A stretch of 64,000 nt of DNA from Pelagomonas calceolata (lineage: Eukaryota > Sar > Pelagophyceae > Pelagomonadales > Pelagomonadaceae), in contig CAKKNE010000004.1 of the NCBI GenBank assembly GCA_918797485.1, positions 3,720,001 through 3,784,000 on the forward strand, given 5' to 3'. Under the pieces are notes generated by a model. The model had not been told where the DNA came from, made no database searches, and worked only from the letters and a program-made list of their open reading frames with translations. This document shows, piece by piece, positions 5,055 to 64,000 of the stretch (position 1 is the stretch's first letter; every line of letters starts with the position of its first letter). The position numbers and the translations under genes are program-made.

Positions 5055-6110
5055 TCAGAGCGTCATCTCCGCGCCACCCTCGTCCTCGGGCTGCGTCGCG
5101 TCCAGCGAGAGCAGGTCGGCCACGGGCGTCGCGTCCGGCGGTGGCGGCGGCGGCTCCTCCGCCGCCGCAGCGCCAGCAGATTCAGCCATGGCGAGCGACT
5201 CCTTGATCGCCTGGACCATCATCTCCTCCTCCGTCATGCCCGCGGGCGCGGCGTGGCCCCGCGCCGGCGGCGAGTGGATCGGGTTCGCCGCGGCGCCCGT
5301 CGGCCGGTGCCACTGCGTCCGCTTCGTGTTGTGGTCCACGTAGTAGGGCGTGCCGTCGGCGTTGCGGCCCTCCTCCCAGCCCGGCGGCAGCGGGCCCGGC
5401 GACGTCGTAGGAGGCGGCGGCGGCGCGTAGCTTTGTGACGGCGCGGCGGCCTGGCCGGGCGGCCGGACCTCGACGATCGTCGTCACGATGCAGTCGAAGT
5501 GCGTCTCGGGCCGCGCCCAGGCCGGCACCTTGACGGCGAACTTGCCGGCCGTCGGGGTGGCCACGGACAGGCTGTCGCCGGCCTTGGCGTGGCGCGGGAC
5601 CAGCACTCTGACAGTTTTACGTGTCTCCTGGCGCGTGCCCGCCTGCACCACACTTCTCGGAGGATTCCGACGGTTCTCCTCGGCCTGCAGCCGCGCCGCG
5701 ACCATCATGTCGCGCTGCACGTCCGAGAGCGTGGCCGGGTCGGCGCCCTCGCCGCCCGCTAAACTCGCCGCCAGGGCCGCGTCACGCTCGAGCTGCGACC
5801 CCTCGCTCCGCGCGCGCTCCTCCTCGCGCTCCATCTGCCGCAGGAACTTTTCCTCGTTCTGCTGCTGGCGCCTTAAAGCCACGTCGCTCGCGCGGCGCTC
5901 CCGCAACTCCGGATCCTCCTGGACGGACTCGGCGTTGTCGAGGCGCGCGTAGCCGTCGCCGGCGCCGGTCAGGGTGCCCAGGCCGCCGAGGCGCGGCGGT
6001 CGGAGCGCCGGCGCCGGCCGCTGCTGCGCGACGCCGCCGATGGGCGGCGGCGGTTCTTGGGGAACGAGGTTCGCTGATGCGTCGTCAAATTGTGGGGGGG
6101 CGTAGGCCAT
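5055..6110 (-). CDS. WW-domain and UIM adaptor protein
   Basis: 351 residues starting at an ATG. Order: Pro-rich N-terminus; Glu/Arg-rich coiled coil (~65-110); a UIM-like helix (~107-120, DAALAASL); a beta segment (~165-213) with two VP-x-x-a-x-pG-type half repeats; a WW domain (241-271, LPPGWEEG...YYVDHNTKRTQW); and a clear ubiquitin-interacting motif (293-310, EEEMMVQAIKESLAMAE). Together these suggest a cytosolic adaptor that links ubiquitinated cargo to PPxY-type partners, as in NEDD4-like pathways. That role is inferred from domains only. Confidence 0.75.
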   Translation of the reverse strand: MAYAPPQFDDASANLVPQEPPPPIGGVAQQRPAPALRPPRLGGLGTLTGAGDGYARLDNAESVQEDPELRERRASDVALRRQQQNEEKFLRQMEREEERARSEGSQLERDAALAASLAGGEGADPATLSDVQRDMMVAARLQAEENRRNPPRSVVQAGTRQETRKTVRVLVPRHAKAGDSLSVATPTAGKFAVKVPAWARPETHFDCIVTTIVEVRPPGQAAAPSQSYAPPPPPTTSPGPLPPGWEEGRNADGTPYYVDHNTKRTQWHRPTGAAANPIHSPPARGHAAPAGMTEEEMMVQAIKESLAMAESAGAAAAEEPPPPPPDATPVADLLSLDATQPEDEGGAEMTL

Positions 6111-27726: not shown

Positions 27727-28282
27727 ATGGTGCTGCTTGCCAGGTGCTGCAGCTACCGCGTCGCAAAACATCGATTACAAGAGGCTAGGGATGCGCAAAA
27801 TCTACATGAGATTACCGACTTACTGCTTGACGAGACCCCGCGCGATACGCGCGAGCGCCTGAAGCCAACACAAAATCAATCGAGTCGTTCGCGCGCATCG
27901 CTGCCGCCGAGAAACCGCGACCGCTCGCAGGCTGCTGCTCGTCGCGGCGTCGGCGCTCGCCGCGAAGGGCCGCATCGAGACGTGTAGTGGCTGAAAGCTC
28001 AACAAATTGAAGGAGGTGAAGCGCTTCGTCAAGGAGCCGGGCCACGCCGACAGCTACGAGGGCCTCGTCATCGACTTCAAGCCCGGGAAAAAGCCACACC
28101 TCATCATCGAGGACGATGCAGGCGAGGAGCTGGAACGCATCGACCTCGCGCCCCTGTCGACGGGCGAGATCCACGAGCTCATGCGGAGCAAGGGCTTCGT
28201 GCCCCGGGTGCCGGACGCGGGCGCCGCCGAGGCGCTTGAAGCGCAAGCGGAGGCCGTCGCCGACGCCGAGGCGACGCTCTAG
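27727..28282 (+). CDS. SELENOM: SelM/Sep15-family selenoprotein with in-frame TGA (2 exons)
   Basis: Exon 1 is 27727-27743 (17 bases) and exon 2 is 27931-28282; 122 residues. Splicing gives a signal peptide (MVLLARLLLVAASALA) followed by C24-S-G-U27, where U is the TGA at 27992-27994. The sequence after it, KLNKLKEVKRFV, aligns with the region that follows CGGU in animal SelM (QLNRLKEVKAFV), and GEELERIDLAPLSTGEIHELMRSKGF matches the rest of the SelM/Sep15 thioredoxin-like domain. A stop at this TGA would remove the whole domain. The protein is predicted to be a secretory-pathway (ER) thiol oxidoreductase. A SECIS-like hairpin follows at 28305-28380. Confidence 0.85.
27744..27930 (+). other. 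Intron of the SelM-type gene (187 bp)
   Basis: Donor AG|GTGCTG, acceptor CGCTCGCAG. It leaves two bases from exon 1, giving an Arg codon at the junction and a continuous signal peptide. No introner similarity. Confidence 0.65.
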
Positions 28283-28304
28283 TGTTTTGTGACCGTGTGA
28301 TTGG

Positions 28305-28380
28305 CACCGCCTCACGTGATGACGGCCGCGCGCGTGTATTCTACGAGACGCGCGTGGCCCGACAGATAGATTTGGCGGTG
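28305..28380 (+). promoter_or_regulatory. SECIS-like element of the SelM-type gene
   Basis: 23 bases after the stop. Lower helix CACCGCC (28305-28311) with GGCGGTG (28374-28380); core quartet ATGA (28319-28322) opposite GA (28361-28362); upper helix of ~12 bp (GGCCGCGCGCGT with ACGCGCGTGGCC, one G-T). The ~12-base apical loop lacks the usual AA pair, so this is a strong but not canonical candidate. Confidence 0.65.
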
Positions 28381-57159: not shown

Positions 57160-58158
57160 TTAGTCCCTAGGCAGACTCTTCAGGAGCTCGTCGACCTCCT
57201 CCCGCGCGGACGCGACGCTCCAGGCGCCGCCGAACGGGTCCGACAGGTCCTCGACGAAGGACTCGATGAGCTGAAAAGCAGCCACGAGCGTGGCGAACAG
57301 GACCGCCTCGAAGCGGAGCGAGCCCAAGTCCACCAACAGGAAGACGGCCAGCAGGATCCTCGAAATGATGACGTAGGAGTAGAGCTTGATCGGCGGTATC
57401 GTCGACGCCAGCGCGGACGCCCGCGCCGACCGGGCCGACACCGCGGCGCCGTACGCGTTGACGGCGCGCGCGCAGACCGCGCCGCCGCCGGCCGCGGCGT
57501 CGACCTCGTCCACGGCCCCCAGCAGCCGCGCGAGCGACGCCTGGTCCGCACCGTCGGCGGCCTCGCCGTCCACCGCATCGCGCAGCGTCTCCGCGTGCGC
57601 CCGGATGGCCCGCCGCGCCTCGCCCAGGTCGGTCTTCTTGCTGCTCCTATTGACGATGTCGCAGACCTCGGCGACGTCGCGGACGGCGAACGCCTCCGCG
57701 AAGAGGGAGTCCTGGATCGCGCCCTGCCGGCTCGACAGCTGCGAGTAGATCGAGCCCAGGATCGTCGAGTAGATCAGGGCGAGCAGGGTCACGAACGGGC
57801 CGAACGCGCCGACGCCCTGGCTCCGGTCGATGCCCAGCACCTCGACGATCGCGACGTTCAGGTAGTCGTTGCCCAGCACGTAGCCGCCGAACGCCGCGCC
57901 GGCCGCGACCACGAGCCTCGAAATGCGGTCCAGGCGCACGCCGCCGACGGTGCGGTCGCCGAAGGTCGACGGCGTAACGCGGTCCACGGACGCGTCGTCA
58001 GCTGTGCTGGACCGCGCGATGCCGGCTTTGGCAGCCCGCCGCGCGGGGCGGGCGCTGGGCACAGGCAGACAGACACCTTTCGACACGGCGGTGCGGAGCG
58101 GAGCAGGCGGCAGCAGTGCGCGCGCATGGCACAGGAGAATCGCTGCTAGCAGCCGCAT
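57160..58158 (-). CDS. Bestrophin-like (DUF4239-type) membrane protein, plastid-targeting-like leader
   Basis: 332 residues from an ATG. Leader MRLLAAILLCHARALLPPAP suggests a signal/plastid presequence. Hydrophobic segments at ~82-100 (LVVAAGAAFGGYVLG), ~120-140 (AFGPFVTLLALIYSTILGSI), ~262-285 (YSYVIISRILLAVFLLVDLG) and ~288-310. The arrangement, with FGPFVTLLALIYSTILGSIY and a long helical loop between pairs, matches DUF4239 bestrophin-like proteins, some of which are chloroplast anion channels. Ion selectivity is not deducible. Confidence 0.68.
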   Translation of the reverse strand: MRLLAAILLCHARALLPPAPLRTAVSKGVCLPVPSARPARRAAKAGIARSSTADDASVDRVTPSTFGDRTVGGVRLDRISRLVVAAGAAFGGYVLGNDYLNVAIVEVLGIDRSQGVGAFGPFVTLLALIYSTILGSIYSQLSSRQGAIQDSLFAEAFAVRDVAEVCDIVNRSSKKTDLGEARRAIRAHAETLRDAVDGEAADGADQASLARLLGAVDEVDAAAGGGAVCARAVNAYGAAVSARSARASALASTIPPIKLYSYVIISRILLAVFLLVDLGSLRFEAVLFATLVAAFQLIESFVEDLSDPFGGAWSVASAREEVDELLKSLPRD

Positions 58159-58458
58159 CGTTTTTGGCGCTGCCCGGGCAGCCAGGCGGATGGCAGGCGG
58201 ATCGGAAATCTGATGAAGAGGGCGAATCTAGTGTGTCAATACCCTGGCGCGAGGCGGAAGGATGGCGGGGTTTGCCGAGGCGGTTCTGCTGAGAAGGACG
58301 TATGCTGTTATGAAAGACGCGCCCGGCCCGCCCCCGCCGCCGATGAATGCGACGCGCGGTGTCTCGCCCCCCAGGTGCTCCGCCCACTAGTCCTGGCCGT
58401 ACAGATAACCCACGCGGCGCGCGCCGGAGCGGATCCAACACTACAGGTAAGGTTCTCG
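58159..58458. other. Intergenic region with diverged CTAG-type motifs
   Basis: A half palindrome CTAGTGTGTCA (58228-58238) and a companion-like ACTAGTCCTGGCCGTACAG (58386-58404) are present but degenerate. Confidence 0.4.
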
Positions 58459-60009
58459 TTACACAGGCGCCGGCTCGCGGTCGAGGCTCCAGAAGACGTT
58501 CGCGACGGACGCGCCGAGCGCGGCGTCGTTCAGGAGCTTCGTCACGCCCGCGCCCGCCGCCCGCAGGTCCCCGACGCCCTCGCCCATTTCGGGGGTGGGC
58601 TCGAGGTAGACGTCGAGCTCGCAGGCCAGGCCGTTCGGGTAGCGCACGTGCGTCCGCAGCGCCGCGACGGCCGGCTCGTCCGCCAGCGTGTCGGCGACGC
58701 GGCGCTCGAGGTCGGCCTGCGTCGGCAGCGAGGCGACGACGGGGCAGGTCTTCTCCGCCGGCACGACGCGCACCGTCGCGTCCCCGACGCGCGGCGGGCC
58801 CGCGTCGCCGTGGCCGTGCGAGTGCCCGTGCGAGTGGCCGTGCGAGTGCGAGTGCGCGCCGTGGTCCTCGGCCTCCATGTCAAGTAAAGCGACGCGCGCC
58901 GCCTCGGCCAGCTGGAAGCTGGCAGACGTCGACAGGTCGCTGTCCAGGGGCACGACGTCGACGTCGACGCGCAGCTTCCCCGCGATGCTCCGGCCTCTTA
59001 ATGAAGCGACCTGCGCGACGCCCGGCACGGCGAGCACGGCGAAGCGGAGGCGCTCGAGCGCGTCCTGGTCGACCGCATCGCTCAATTCCTGCAGCGCGCC
59101 CGCCGTGATCTGGAAGCCTGTGGCCGCGAGCATCGCCGCAACCGCCAGACCCGCCGCGGCGTCGGCGTGGCGGAAGATTTTGAGCGAGCATCGCGCCGCC
59201 GCGATCCCGACGAGCGCGACGACGGACGACAGCGCGTCGGACCGGTGGTGCCACGCGTTCGCCTCGAGGACGGGCGACCGCAGGCGCTTGCCGACGCGCG
59301 CCGTCGCGCGGAAGAGGCCCTCCTTGGCGACGATGGACACCAGCGCCGCCACCAGGGCGATCTTGCCCGGCTTGAGGCCGAGCGCGCCGTGCGCGTGCAC
59401 GCCGGCGTCGAGCGCGTGCGACGCCGCGCCGGCGCCGGCGGCCACGAGCATGCCGCCCACGACGAGCGCGCCGACGGTCTCGAAGCGGCCGTGGCCGTAC
59501 GGGTGGTCCTCGTCCGCCGGTAATCTTGCCGCGCGCATGGCCACTAATGTCACAACGTCGCTCGCGAGGTCCGAGGCGGAATGGGCCGCGTCGGAGATCA
59601 TCGCGGCGGACCGCCCGTAGATGCCCGCCGCGAGCTTGCCGAACGTCAGGAGCACGTTGACCAATCCGCCGACGACCGTGATGCGGTCCGCCGCCTTCTG
59701 GTCCGCCGAGACGCCGGCCAAGATCTTCTGCGTCGGCGAGGCGAGCAGGTGGCTCGAGGTCCAGTCCGCCAAGGCGGGGTTCAGCCGCCCCGCGACGTGG
59801 CCGGGGATCTTCCACGGCCTTCTCACGGCGTTGAGTAGCGGCCGCGACGCGGTCGCGTCGGCCGTGGCGACGCGGCCGTGGTTCAAGCGCGTCCTGCTTG
59901 GCCTCGCGCGCTCCACAGGGCTGCGCGCCGCGGGAACGCGCACCGCTGGGACGAGTAGCGCCGCAGCGCACCCCAGAAGGAGCAAGACAGCAGGGCCCCT
60001 ACGCTTCAT
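58459..60009 (-). CDS. Cation diffusion facilitator (CDF/ZnT-type) metal transporter
   Basis: 516 residues from an ATG with a long N-terminal extension (signal-like MKRRGPAVLLLLGCAAALLV) suggesting plastid or endomembrane targeting. The CDF domain begins at ~105 (ADRITVVGGLVNVLLTFGKL). Metal-site motifs are intact: SDAAHSASD in TM2 and HHRSDALSS in TM5. A cytosolic His-rich loop (HSHSHGHSHGHSHGHGD, ~395-412) and C-terminal domain follow. Family members move Zn2+, Fe2+ or Mn2+ by proton antiport out of the cytosol. The metal is not assignable. Spacing matches MamB/FieF-type CDFs. Confidence 0.88.
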   Translation of the reverse strand: MKRRGPAVLLLLGCAAALLVPAVRVPAARSPVERARPSRTRLNHGRVATADATASRPLLNAVRRPWKIPGHVAGRLNPALADWTSSHLLASPTQKILAGVSADQKAADRITVVGGLVNVLLTFGKLAAGIYGRSAAMISDAAHSASDLASDVVTLVAMRAARLPADEDHPYGHGRFETVGALVVGGMLVAAGAGAASHALDAGVHAHGALGLKPGKIALVAALVSIVAKEGLFRATARVGKRLRSPVLEANAWHHRSDALSSVVALVGIAAARCSLKIFRHADAAAGLAVAAMLAATGFQITAGALQELSDAVDQDALERLRFAVLAVPGVAQVASLRGRSIAGKLRVDVDVVPLDSDLSTSASFQLAEAARVALLDMEAEDHGAHSHSHGHSHGHSHGHGDAGPPRVGDATVRVVPAEKTCPVVASLPTQADLERRVADTLADEPAVAALRTHVRYPNGLACELDVYLEPTPEMGEGVGDLRAAGAGVTKLLNDAALGASVANVFWSLDREPAPV

Positions 60010-60404
60010 CCTGGCACCGCAGCGACGGGGTTCGGCACTTATTATTGACGAATATCAACGCAGCGGTGGCGTCAACAAGTGCTGCCGCCGAATACGCGCA
60101 GCGGCCTGCCGCAGTGCCTTCTCTCGATCACCGATCATCGATCACCGCTGATCACCGATAGGTTTGCCAGTCAGGAGGTGTGGAACAGCTCTCTGGACAA
60201 CACGCTTTTTTTAGGGCACGGACGCCCACGTCTGTGCCGCACCGGGCGCGGCAGCACGCACACGCATGGGAACTACAAAAGCAAGGTAATATACACACCT
60301 CCGACGACGTGATAACCGGGACAAGCGTATTTCGCGCGCGCGTCGGGGGATACATTAACCCCATCGCGCGCGGTCACGACGCTCGAATCACGACACCACC
60401 GCAT
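60010..60404. other. Intergenic region holding a SECIS-like element
   Basis: 3' UTR of the DsbA-type gene with the SECIS candidate (60308-60392), then promoter of the CDF gene. GATCACCGATCAT-type direct repeats near 60125-60155. Confidence 0.55.
60308..60392 (-). promoter_or_regulatory. SECIS-like element of the DsbA-type gene
   Basis: On the minus strand 13 bases after the stop. Outer helix CGTGAT/ATCACG; inner helix AGCGT/ACGCT; core GTGA opposite GA; upper helix of eight alternating C-G pairs, then GGGG/CCCC; apical loop TTAATGTAT with the expected AA. Fits the eukaryotic SECIS form, with GTGA instead of ATGA. Confidence 0.75.
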
Positions 60405-61058
60405 TCAGAGGACCTCGCCGAATATCTCAACGAGCTGTGGCGCATCTACGGCTCCAGAGAAGCCGACCGGGCGCGCGTCTTCTCGGCCTTGAACGACGAA
60501 ATACGGCACGCCTCGGACCCCGCGCTGCGACGCCTGTGCACAAGCTCTGCGGACGTCCTGCTGCGCCTCCGGCGTGTCTAGGACCTTCCGGAAGCCTTCA
60601 ACATCAACCCCATTTTCCGAGGCAATGCGACAGATTGTTTCCGGATCCGACACGTTCTCCCCGTTCTCGTAGATCGCCTCGAAACAGGCCTTCTTCAGCT
60701 GCGCTTCCTTCTCGCGCGGCGCGAAGCGCAGGAGCTGGTGCGCGCGTAACGTGTTCGGCCAGATCTTCCAGTCGGCGAACGGCGCGCCGACCTTGCGGCC
60801 CTTGGCTCGCAGCGAATGCGTCCAGCCGTCGCTGCCCCACCGCCGTCGATTGTACGCTAGGTAGTCTTCGCCGTTTTCTTGCGTGCCGGGGTCGATCATG
60901 AACGGTTCCCACGAGACGGTCGCGTCGACGCCCTCGCCCTTGATTTGGTCGATGGCCGCGTCGAGATTCTTCGCGCCCACCCAGCACCAAGGTCAGGCAA
61001 AATCGGAGTATACGGTGACCGTCAGCTGCCGACCACTGCGGGCCACGCCGGCCGACAT
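60405..61058 (-). CDS. DsbA/FrnE-family selenoprotein with UPWC active site
   Basis: 217 residues from the ATG at 61058. TGA at 60995-60993 falls at residue 22 inside VTVYSDFA-U-PWCWVG, exactly where DsbA-family thiol oxidoreductases have the first Cys of CPWC. Downstream sequence is a full DsbA/FrnE-like domain: VSWEPFMIDP, helical insertion (60-150), and the cis-Pro loop RGVPYFVVQG. Translation past the TGA with selenocysteine gives a complete enzyme; termination would leave 21 residues. A SECIS candidate lies directly after the stop. No signal peptide, so cytosolic action is likely, as for FrnE-type enzymes. Confidence 0.88.
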
Positions 61059-61378
61059 GGCTGGCAATGCGAGGAGTAGTGTGTAGAGGATGATTGTGTC
61101 CCCGGCGCACGCCGCTGCGCGGTTTAAGTGGTCTCACGTCGCGTAGAGAGTCCTTGCTCGAAGTGAGCAAGTCCTGCACGTGTTTGAGCGGTCACTCGCA
61201 CCGCTATTTTGCCTGAGCTCTCTTTGGGCTTTGCAAGCTCTGCGGAGGTCTGTTGGGTCTGCGTGCACGCAGAGCTTGTTCTCGCTCCTCAGCACGTTAG
61301 GTTACGTTGGGACACCCCGCGGCAGCGCTAAAGACGTGCCGTTGCCGCTCCCGTGCTCGCACTCGAGTACTCAAAGCC
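61059..61378. other. Divergent intergenic region
   Basis: Between the DsbA-type and GNAT-PUB starts. No CTAG palindrome or other motif recognised. Confidence 0.4.
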
Positions 61379-62423
61379 ATGTCGGCTTGGTCTGGCTCCC
61401 TCCCGCCGCCGGGCGAGGAGCGTTCCGAGTTCATCGAGGACAAGGGCGTGCTGCTGCGCCATGGCTCGTCGCTCGCGCTGATGGCGCTAGTCAGCACCGC
61501 CCTCAATGAGTCAGACGAGTTCGGCGAGGTCGACCCCGAGGACGACTGGAAGAAATGGACCGAGGGAAGGCCCGAACTCAAATTGTACTACGGCGCGCTC
61601 ATCGACCCATCGAGGGACGGCGCGGACGCCGTCGCGTGCATCCTGCGGGCGGTCCTCGACCCGTCCACACCAGGCCGGGCGTCCGGTCGGAATCGCATTA
61701 TTATAGATTATGTGACGACGCGCAAGGCTTTTCGGGGCAAGGGCCTCGCAAGCGCCGCCGTGAGCTTCGTCGAGCAGGCGGCCGCGGCCACGGGCTCGAA
61801 TTGTTACGTGCTCGCGCTCGAAGAGAGCTGCACGTACTGGATGGGCCAAGGCTTCATCCTGGAGCCGTCCAGACGCCTCACCGCCCGCCTGAACGTGTTT
61901 CCGGACACGCACCTGCTCCGGCGCGCGGCGGATCCTCCCGATGAAGGCGAAGCATCAGACGACCAGTTCCTCGAGGCCCGCCGGCAACTGGAAGAAGAAG
62001 GGTCGGATTCGGGCGAGGACGAGGACGAGGACGAGGGCGAGGCGCTCGTGATCGCCCTGTCTTTGCTTGCGTCCCATCCGGACGCCGCCGAGCGCGACGC
62101 GAGCCGCGCGCTCCTACTCAAGGCTGCGACGAACCTGACGAACGACCCGTGGAATCCAGTGTGGAGACCCCCACCACCACGCCATCGAGCAGACGTCGCG
62201 TCGATGGCGTGGAGGTCGACGCGCTGATCCGCACAGGTCCAACCCAAAATACCGGCGCCTCCGCAAGCAGAACGCCATCATCGCCGCCAAGGTCGTCAAA
62301 GTCACTGGCGCCCCGGAGGTCCTCGCGTGCATGGGTTTCGAGGACGCGGGCGACGAGTGGGTCGTCCGCGACGACGACGTGTGGCAGCGCGCCGCTGCCA
62401 CCGCGGCCGCGCTGAAGATGTAG
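61379..62423 (+). CDS. GNAT acetyltransferase fused to PUB-like domain (2 exons)
   Basis: Exon 1 is 61379-62160 and exon 2 is 62237-62423; 322 residues. The start ATG follows an in-frame TTG. Residues ~25-165 form a GNAT domain: RNRIIIDYVTTRKAFRGKGL then ASAAVSFVEQAA contains the acetyl-CoA loop RxxxxGKGLA, and YVLALEESCTYWMGQGFILE is the C-terminal strand pair. An acidic linker (~200-235) follows. The last ~85 residues, completed only after splicing out a 76-bp introner (PWNPV-SNPKYRRLRKQNAII...VTGAPEVLACMGFEDAGDEW), match the PUB/PUG domain that binds p97/VCP. The combination suggests acetylation linked to p97 or ubiquitin processes. Confidence 0.75.
62161..62236 (+). mobile_element. Introner-like element acting as an intron (76 bp)
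   Basis: Donor T|GTGGAG, acceptor CCGCACAG|GT. Core hairpin CCACGCCATCGA...TCGATGGCGTGG. Removal restores the PUB-like domain in frame; unspliced, the protein ends soon after with an element-derived tail. Confidence 0.75.
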
Positions 62424-62456
62424 TCTGTTGTCCTAAGAAATGTTCATGCGCTGTTC

Positions 62457-63465
62457 TTAAGAACTGTTACCATGACAGGCGAGGCGCCGCCCCATGAACG
62501 CCTCGCGCGCCAGCTCGTAGAAGGCCGCGTCGGCCACGTTTGCCGCGACGAACGCGGCCTCGCGCGCGCGGTCGACCTTCGCGGGCGCGCGGCGCCGCGG
62601 GCCGTCGCGGCCGCGGTGGTGCCGCGACAGGCGCAGGAAATGCGACGGCAGCAGACGCTCGAGCTCGGCCGCCGTCGCCGTCGGCCGGTCGCTCAGGCCC
62701 ACCAGCAGGAAGCGCTCCTTCGCCCGCCGCCAGGCGATCTGCGCCGCCTCGGCGCCGCGAACTCCGGCGCACGCATCGCCGCAGAACCACGCGACGTCCG
62801 CGTCGTCGTCGACGTCGAGCACGTTGCGGAAGCACGACGAGGCTTCCGCGGCCAAACAGTCGTCGACCTGATGGAGCACGCGCCGCGGGCGCCCCGCGAC
62901 CTGCTGCGCGTAGCGCTCGTGCGGGTCCCTCGCTATTGCAACGACGAGCGGCGTCCGCCCGAAGCTAAAGTCCGTCGCCGTCGTCGCCAGGACCACCGCG
63001 TACTTGTTCGACTTCAGGAGGCACTTTTGCGTCGCTCGCGCGTCGAGCCAGGCGCAGATCGAGAAGTCGTTCGCGACCGTGAGGGGCTGCATGGCTCGTA
63101 CGAGTCCCTTCGTCGCCGGCGCGGCGTCCGGCGGCGCCGCCAGCACGACGAGCCGGTGCGCGCCCGACTTCACGGGCGGGCAGGCGGACGCCGCACCCGG
63201 TGCGTAGGGCCTCGACGGCACCGCGACGGCCCGCGCCCGGTCGTAGAGTTCGGGCTCGAAGTCGTGCGCGTGGACCACAATACAACCATCCTCCGCGACG
63301 GTCTTGTCCTTCAGCACCGTCGCGCGGCAGTGGCGCACGTTGCGGCCTGTGTGGAAATCAAATTTTACGGCGCGTTCGTCCTGAATCCTCCACGCCATCG
63401 ACGCGACGCCTGCTCGATGGCGTGGTCGTTCTCGTTCCACACAGGTCGCGACAATTATAAGTCAT
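62457..63465 (-). CDS. Sulfotransferase-like protein (2 exons; 5' end uncertain)
   Basis: Exon 2 is 63346-62457; exon 1 ends at 63441 and could begin at the ATG at 63465 or continue upstream in frame (SHGLVAEKLPMTYNCRDL). About 305 residues with the short start. Blocks such as GCIVVHAHDFEPELYDRARA, VVAIARDPHERYAQQVAG and ERFLLVGLSDRPTATAAELE resemble Golgi carbohydrate sulfotransferases (HS2ST/Gal3ST type), where the second block would bind 3'-phosphoadenosine. The N-terminal PAPS loop is not seen, so the gene may be 5' incomplete. Intron 63347-63440 is an introner. Confidence 0.55.
63347..63440 (-). mobile_element. Introner-like element acting as an intron (94 bp)
   Basis: 11-bp terminal inverted repeats CCTGTGTGGAA/TTCCACACAGG with the same core hairpin as the 62.2-kb element (one base different). 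Splice sites GTGGAA and CACAG fit phase 1. Confidence 0.75.
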
Positions 63466-63506
63466 GGGCAATTTCTCCGCGACGAGGCCGTGCGACGCGC
63501 GTTGTG

Positions 63507-63830
63507 GCTGCCTACAACTACGCGGTGTCCCTTAACCATCTAGAGCGATTCGAAGAAGCCAAGGCAGTGCTGCGCAACATGATGCCCGTGGCGCCACGCG
63601 TTCTCGGCGAAAATCATGAACTCATGCTCAGGACGAGGGCGCTTTACGCGGAGGCGCTCTACCTTGACGAGGGCGCCACGCTCGGCGATCTCCGCGAGGC
63701 CGCGACGGCGTTCGAGGACGTCGTACGGATTTCGCGGCGCGTGCTCGGTGGTTCGCATCCGGTCACGACGGAGGTTGAGAACGACCTGCAAAAGGCGCGA
63801 GACGCGCTCTACGCCCGCGGGCTGCCCTGA
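63507..63830 (+). pseudogene. Kinesin-light-chain-type TPR fragment, 5'-truncated
   Basis: About 107 codons read AAYNYAVSLNHLERFEEAKA...RVLGENHELMLRTRALYAEA...VLGGSHPVTTEVENDLQKAR then stop. These are KLC-like TPRs (GxxHxxxxxxxxxYA, GxxHPxT), a family abundant in Aureococcus. The frame has no ATG before MMPVAPRVL, and no upstream exon can be placed because the minus-strand gene occupies that side. It is either a remnant or an exon of a gene with an unrecognised upstream exon. Confidence 0.5.
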
Positions 63831-63953
63831 GAACTCCTAACTACTCAGTATCTTTAAAGAAACACAACATCTTACACGTGAGGGGGATGGACGGCCGAGG
63901 GGAGTCACAACGTCCGCCACGAGATTCGCAGCCGGCTCGCAAGAAAAACTCCA

Positions 63954-64000
63954 CTACTTGCCCGCCGCCTTCTCCCGCGCCTCCCTTAATAGATCCTGCT
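63954..64000 (-). CDS. C-terminus of a gene running off the right edge
   Basis: The last 15 codons, reading QDLLREAREKAAGK then stop, have coding character and follow a ~120-bp gap after the TPR fragment. Too short to identify. Confidence 0.4.
   Translation of the reverse strand, partial: QDLLREAREKAAGK

Follow-up and report, generated by a model that had tools for sequence, protein, structure and literature searches.

A DsbA-like gene in the analysed stretch of 64,000 nucleotides of Pelagomonas calceolata DNA (hereafter, the window) has a TGA codon where its family has the catalytic cysteine, which raises the question of whether this codon ends translation or specifies selenocysteine (Sec). 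On the minus strand, the frame is open from the ATG at 61058 to its TGA stop and holds only this one internal TGA, which sits between VYSDFA and PWCWVG (Table 1). A Pfam search with the read-through protein revealed a DSBA domain over residues 13-211 (E 3.2e-31; 109 bits against a curated cut-off of 25.6), spanning both flanks of the internal TGA. The FrnE structures PDB 5cnw and 5cp1, which we take to be of Deinococcus origin, align across the active site with an E-value of 1.5e-22, and the first Cys of their CPWC motif falls exactly on the TGA codon. FrnE thus shares the domain and the motif position with the window protein, but it has Cys instead of Sec and a longer chain of 260 residues. 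In the homologue alignment, both flanks of the TGA match Cys-type proteins in frame. The characteristic features of the DsbA/FrnE family were found, i.e., a CPWC-type site, present here as UPWC, and a conserved VP loop (V184 and P185 in alignment A4), whose Pro185 presumably corresponds to the cis-Pro loop of thioredoxin folds. The initial annotation had described an in-frame TGA at the Cys of CPWC with a full domain after it, and its coordinates and motif were borne out. The gene very probably encodes a Sec-containing thiol-disulfide oxidoreductase of the DsbA/FrnE family whose UGA would be read as Sec via a SECIS element; read-through and activity are predicted.

Table 1. Features of the DsbA-type gene and of related loci. 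Plain numbers are window positions; C numbers denote contigs of the genome; identity is to the window protein.
Feature	Location	Strand	Details and basis
DsbA/FrnE-type selenoprotein CDS	60405..61058	minus	217 aa + TGA stop (60407-60405); frame, Pfam and PDB matches
In-frame TGA, Sec22, at first Cys of CPWC	60993..60995	minus	translation, FrnE and homologue alignments
Codon of resolving Cys25 (UPWC)	60984..60986	minus	translation; position counted
Pro185 of GVP motif	60504..60506	minus	V184 and P185 invariant in alignment A4; position counted
Predicted SECIS element	60322..60385	minus	helix I 60385-60379/60328-60322; hairpin scans
Predicted SECIS core	GTGAC 60377-60373, CGA 60334-60332	minus	hairpin scans
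Apical-loop AA of predicted SECIS	60356-60355	minus	hairpin scans
Second selenoprotein gene, Sep15/SelM domain	27971-28378	plus	CSGUKL; PF08806, E 2.1e-19
tRNA-Sec pair (L011/L012)	C5:5024950-5025614		tandem cluster Trp-SeC-Val-Trp-SeC; identical scores
DsbA-fold locus L003/L004	C6		UPFC (L003, first matched part only); 34% identity; SECIS core 22 nt past stop
DsbA-fold locus L002	C2		UPNG; 28% identity; Pfam DSBA E 3.2e-15 read through; SECIS core 25 nt past stop
DsbA-fold locus L008/L009	C1, C5		ULWT; 22% identity; Pfam DSBA E 2.3e-9 (L008 read through); SECIS core 9 nt past stop

An in-frame hydrophobic stretch, DTIILYTLLLALPAM, runs into Met1 from upstream (61058-61133, minus strand) and has no ATG of its own. 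Two homologues, P0014 and P0015, have hydrophobic N-terminal extensions. Considering these two observations, an upstream exon may contribute a targeting signal, and the predicted start at Met1 is uncertain.

We searched the genome (32,445,274 bases in 8 contigs) for Sec decoding. The genome paper describes, for strain RCC100, a nuclear assembly in six contigs (32.4 Mb) together with a plastid and a mitochondrial contig, a GC content of 63%, and near-identical duplicates at the ends of contigs 1 and 5 (PMC9481584). The duplicated ends were visible in our search, where a DsbA-fold gene at C1:150049 had an identically scoring twin at C5:150126. Two tRNA-Sec genes with the anticodon TCA were found (62.5 bits each, cut-off 47), together with SepSecS (E 1.6e-111) and SPS/SelD (E 3.1e-83). 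A TGA occupied the usual Sec site in four of five GPx matches, three of three Sep15/SelM matches, two of three Rdx matches and two of 11 MsrA matches, and the motifs NVASEUGKT, CSGUKL, CGGUGYK and GUFW, which we take to be the usual Sec motifs, were read directly. The tRNA-Sec genes, SepSecS, SPS and the TGA codons at these motifs indicate that the genome decodes Sec; in such a genome, a single TGA at the active site of a DsbA protein is expected biology. The second selenoprotein gene in the window, of the Sep15/SelM type, has the stop TAG at 28280-28282 and an ATGAC...CGAC SECIS core at 28320.

Behind the DsbA gene, a SECIS-type hairpin was found that fits the canonical eukaryotic form, with an [A/G]UGA/GA quartet, two helices and an AA or CC loop. 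Its helix I has 7 bp and its helix II 13 bp, the quartet strands are GTGAC and CGAA, and the apical loop contains AA. The GTGA/GA core, the two helices and the apical AA had been recognized in the initial annotation and stand, but the hairpin does not start 13 bases after the stop; we counted 20 nt to helix I and 28 nt to the core. The spacing from the quartet to the AA is 17 nt, longer than the canonical distance of about 11-12 nt and than the spacing typical of animal SECIS elements. Using strict energy cut-offs and requiring an AA or CC loop, this hairpin was the sole element in the window (128 kb over both strands), and when the 150 nt around it were dinucleotide-shuffled 5000 times, one shuffle contained such an element; as the cut-offs were set with the energies already known, these figures are descriptive. 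Looser cut-offs gave four elements in the window: the DsbA hairpin at -34.6 kcal/mol, the SelM element (28320) at -35.8, and weaker ones at 5436 (-26.2) and 5784 (-28.4), the last two presumably due to chance. The plain folding energy of the DsbA hairpin is unexceptional for a sequence of this composition (z -0.58; 47 of 200 shuffles were equally good). No SECIS was called by Rfam cmscan at window positions 58000-64000, nor by a genome-wide search with Rfam SECIS_1 in which 132 of 249 candidates were scored. This is weak counter-evidence, because the other selenoprotein genes of the genome were all missed too. In some green algae, predicted selenoproteins without a called SECIS have been reported, for which the authors cite lineage-specific features or incomplete assembly (PMC6627142).

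Because the Rfam searches found nothing, we used the selenoprotein genes of this genome to define the SECIS form. A first scan of 14 gene ends revealed a shared form, i.e., [AG]TGAC followed by a 10-13 bp helix, a CC or AA loop and CGA; its hairpins were weak or wrong for L002, L028, L029 and L033, and there was none for L024. A second scan, with the core fixed as [AG]TGAC...CGA and any loop permitted, covered 15 TGA loci (L040 was added; L004-L007, L009 and L010, duplicates of the same places, were omitted) and improved all of these except L024. The element was found on the sense strand behind 14 of the 15 TGA-bearing loci and in none of eight control loci hand-chosen among those with a TGA-less match (26.9 kb, both strands; L034, L038 and L039 omitted), counts that describe rather than test the form because the cut-offs were chosen after the first-scan energies, including that of the DsbA gene, were known. 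The exception, L024 (C4:4907501), is a GPx-type gene with TGA in NVASEUGD, behind whose stop neither scan found a common-form SECIS. Two elements were found at L029, and one antisense element in L021. The best sense elements have GTGAC at five of 14 loci (L001, L008, L022, L023 and L033) and ATGAC at the other nine, and in all 12 genes with a placeable stop the core lies 9-51 nt behind it. The GTGA core and the close approach of the SECIS to the stop, both initially singled out as notable, are therefore ordinary in this genome. GUGA cores are also the majority form in some algae: GUGA_AA elements make up most of the SECIS described for Chlamydomonas and two Ostreococcus species (PMC3473315). 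Compared by description, the DsbA element resembles these and a sponge element in its GUGA core and apical AA; a difference is that AUGAC cores occur in the Pelagomonas genome too, as do loops that contain CC or lack both AA and CC.

We built a covariance model, R1, from eight of the elements (L003, L008, L020-L023, L025 and L027), in which the quartet and the first AA or CC in the loop are 12-17 nt apart. Among the left-out loci it scored 34 bits for L033, 26.5 for L040, 24.8 for L028, 23.2 for L002 and 16.5 for the held-out DsbA element, and matches from 14.7 bits down, including the top matches in L024 and L029, were taken for noise. The DsbA match (60316-60392, E 0.24 in 110 kb) is weak, likely because of the longer helix and the 17 nt from quartet to AA.

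A homologue search found 127 proteins, of which 120 were listed. Among those listed, the Sec22 column holds Cys in 67, Trp in two and Val in one (P0114, whose gene model is in another frame there), and the remaining 50 do not extend to this column. These short proteins start within query residues 23-60 in 48 cases and later in two. Twelve of the listed proteins, P0002-P0013, reach the level of 60% identity or more across half the query or more (63-96% identity to the window protein). All of them start past the TGA site, nine at residue 54, which is the first Met past Sec22, and one each at residues 36, 48 and 74. P0002 and P0003 represent 105 and 232 sequences, respectively. As the relatives are known here from proteins, conservation of the TGA was inferred from the protein ends, and the starts of the models suggest, indirectly, that the codon is conserved. 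By tblastn, no relative was found in viral contigs (9 pattern matches) or prokaryote genome contigs (92).

The same gene models could also mean that the TGA is spliced out, or that translation starts downstream at Met54, so that the protein would be shortened and lose its active site. The Met54 starts of P0002 and P0003, the start of P0012 at residue 74 and the other frame of P0114 near the site would agree with this. However, such a product would be without UxxC, yet the residues flanking the TGA align in frame with Cys-type homologues, and gene models from which the Sec part is missing in this way are described for the DsbA genes of Ciona and Branchiostoma (PMC2874816). We consider splicing or a downstream start to have only a slight chance of being correct.

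The two Trp-containing homologues, P0014 and P0015 (46-48% identity), resemble P0025, P0032, P0044 and P0061, whose sequences open with MKNLDAA or MKSLDAA at residue 29, just past the Sec22 site. In our reading, the DNA behind P0014 and P0015 would have a TGA that was miscalled as Trp. Taken literally, the W at this site could instead indicate that the nuclear code of P. calceolata reads TGA as Trp, but the window DsbA gene, L002, L003 and L027 terminate at TGA, a tRNA-Sec with a TCA anticodon is present, and the TGA-holding GPx, Sep15/SelM, Rdx and MsrA matches have just one such codon each, at the Sec motif. A reassigned code is thus the most improbable of the explanations considered here, and Sec remains by far the better reading of the codon.

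Three more DsbA-fold loci, L002, L003 and L008 (twin L009), have a TGA in the Sec22 alignment column. L002 and L008 are without a resolving Cys. In L003/L004, an intron or a change of frame apparently lies between the two matched parts. The additional loci also bear on the possibility that a DsbA gene of the Cys type acquired the window TGA as a nonsense change, in a pseudogene or through a sequencing error. One change from TGC or TGT to TGA would give an identical sequence; however, the remaining frame is intact, a SECIS-type hairpin sits past the stop, the 12 close relatives listed start past the same codon, and the TGA recurs in the same column at three other loci. A pseudogene or error is therefore very unlikely. 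Whether the loci form a small group of Sec-DsbA proteins is, in our judgement, evenly balanced. In such a group, Sec would be kept in one column and the resolving Cys would be optional, from UPWC in the window and UPFC in L003 to UPNG in L002 and ULWT in L008/L009; the last two would depend on a single selenol, which glutathione might resolve, and all would be read through by a compact [AG]UGAC...CGA SECIS 9-51 nt past the stop, missed by the Rfam model.

For the window gene, we propose that UGA codon 22 would be decoded as Sec by tRNA-Sec, recruited via the SECIS hairpin with its core 28 nt past the true stop. The selenol of Sec22 would be the attacking residue, and Cys25 would resolve the selenenylsulfide, as in the Cys-X-X-Cys of DsbA/FrnE. 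The upstream Cys of DsbA is described as exposed, with a low pKa and able to act without the downstream Cys (PMC2874816); Sec in its place should be a stronger nucleophile. The Pelagomonas DsbA almost certainly uses Sec as its catalytic residue. Substrate and compartment are predicted more broadly: the protein would likely work in disulfide exchange, in the cytosol, the plastid or the secretory path. The initial proposal of a functional selenoprotein gains support from the Sec-decoding genome, the Cys in distant relatives, the SECIS form common to the other selenoprotein genes and, indirectly through gene-model starts, the apparent conservation of the TGA.

Sec-containing DsbA proteins are known from Micromonas, Ciona and Branchiostoma (PMC2874816), other marine invertebrates (PMC3473315) and algae (PMC7539508). 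According to these descriptions, they share with the Pelagomonas protein a DsbA-like thioredoxin domain, a SECIS behind the gene and the loss of the Sec part in older models, and in Ciona and Branchiostoma Sec likewise replaces the upstream Cys of UxxC (PMC2874816). Compared by description, the present case differs in the species and in its SECIS, whose GUGAC core is separated from the AA by 17 nt. Enzymes of this kind have been described before in other algae, in marine animals and in bacteria. The Pelagomonas gene itself changes no concept. If our reading is true, a selenium-dependent redox set would tie the growth of Pelagomonas to selenium supply; this set is partly hidden by shortened gene models, and the annotation becomes correctable. 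The main text of the genome paper (PMC9481584) contains no word starting with 'selen', the main text of another Pelagomonas paper (PMC13284251) contains neither 'selen' nor 'DsbA', and our literature search did not find Pelagomonas calceolata together with 'selenoprotein'. 'Pelagomonas' and 'selenocysteine' co-occur, once each, in work listed as being on volatile metabolites.
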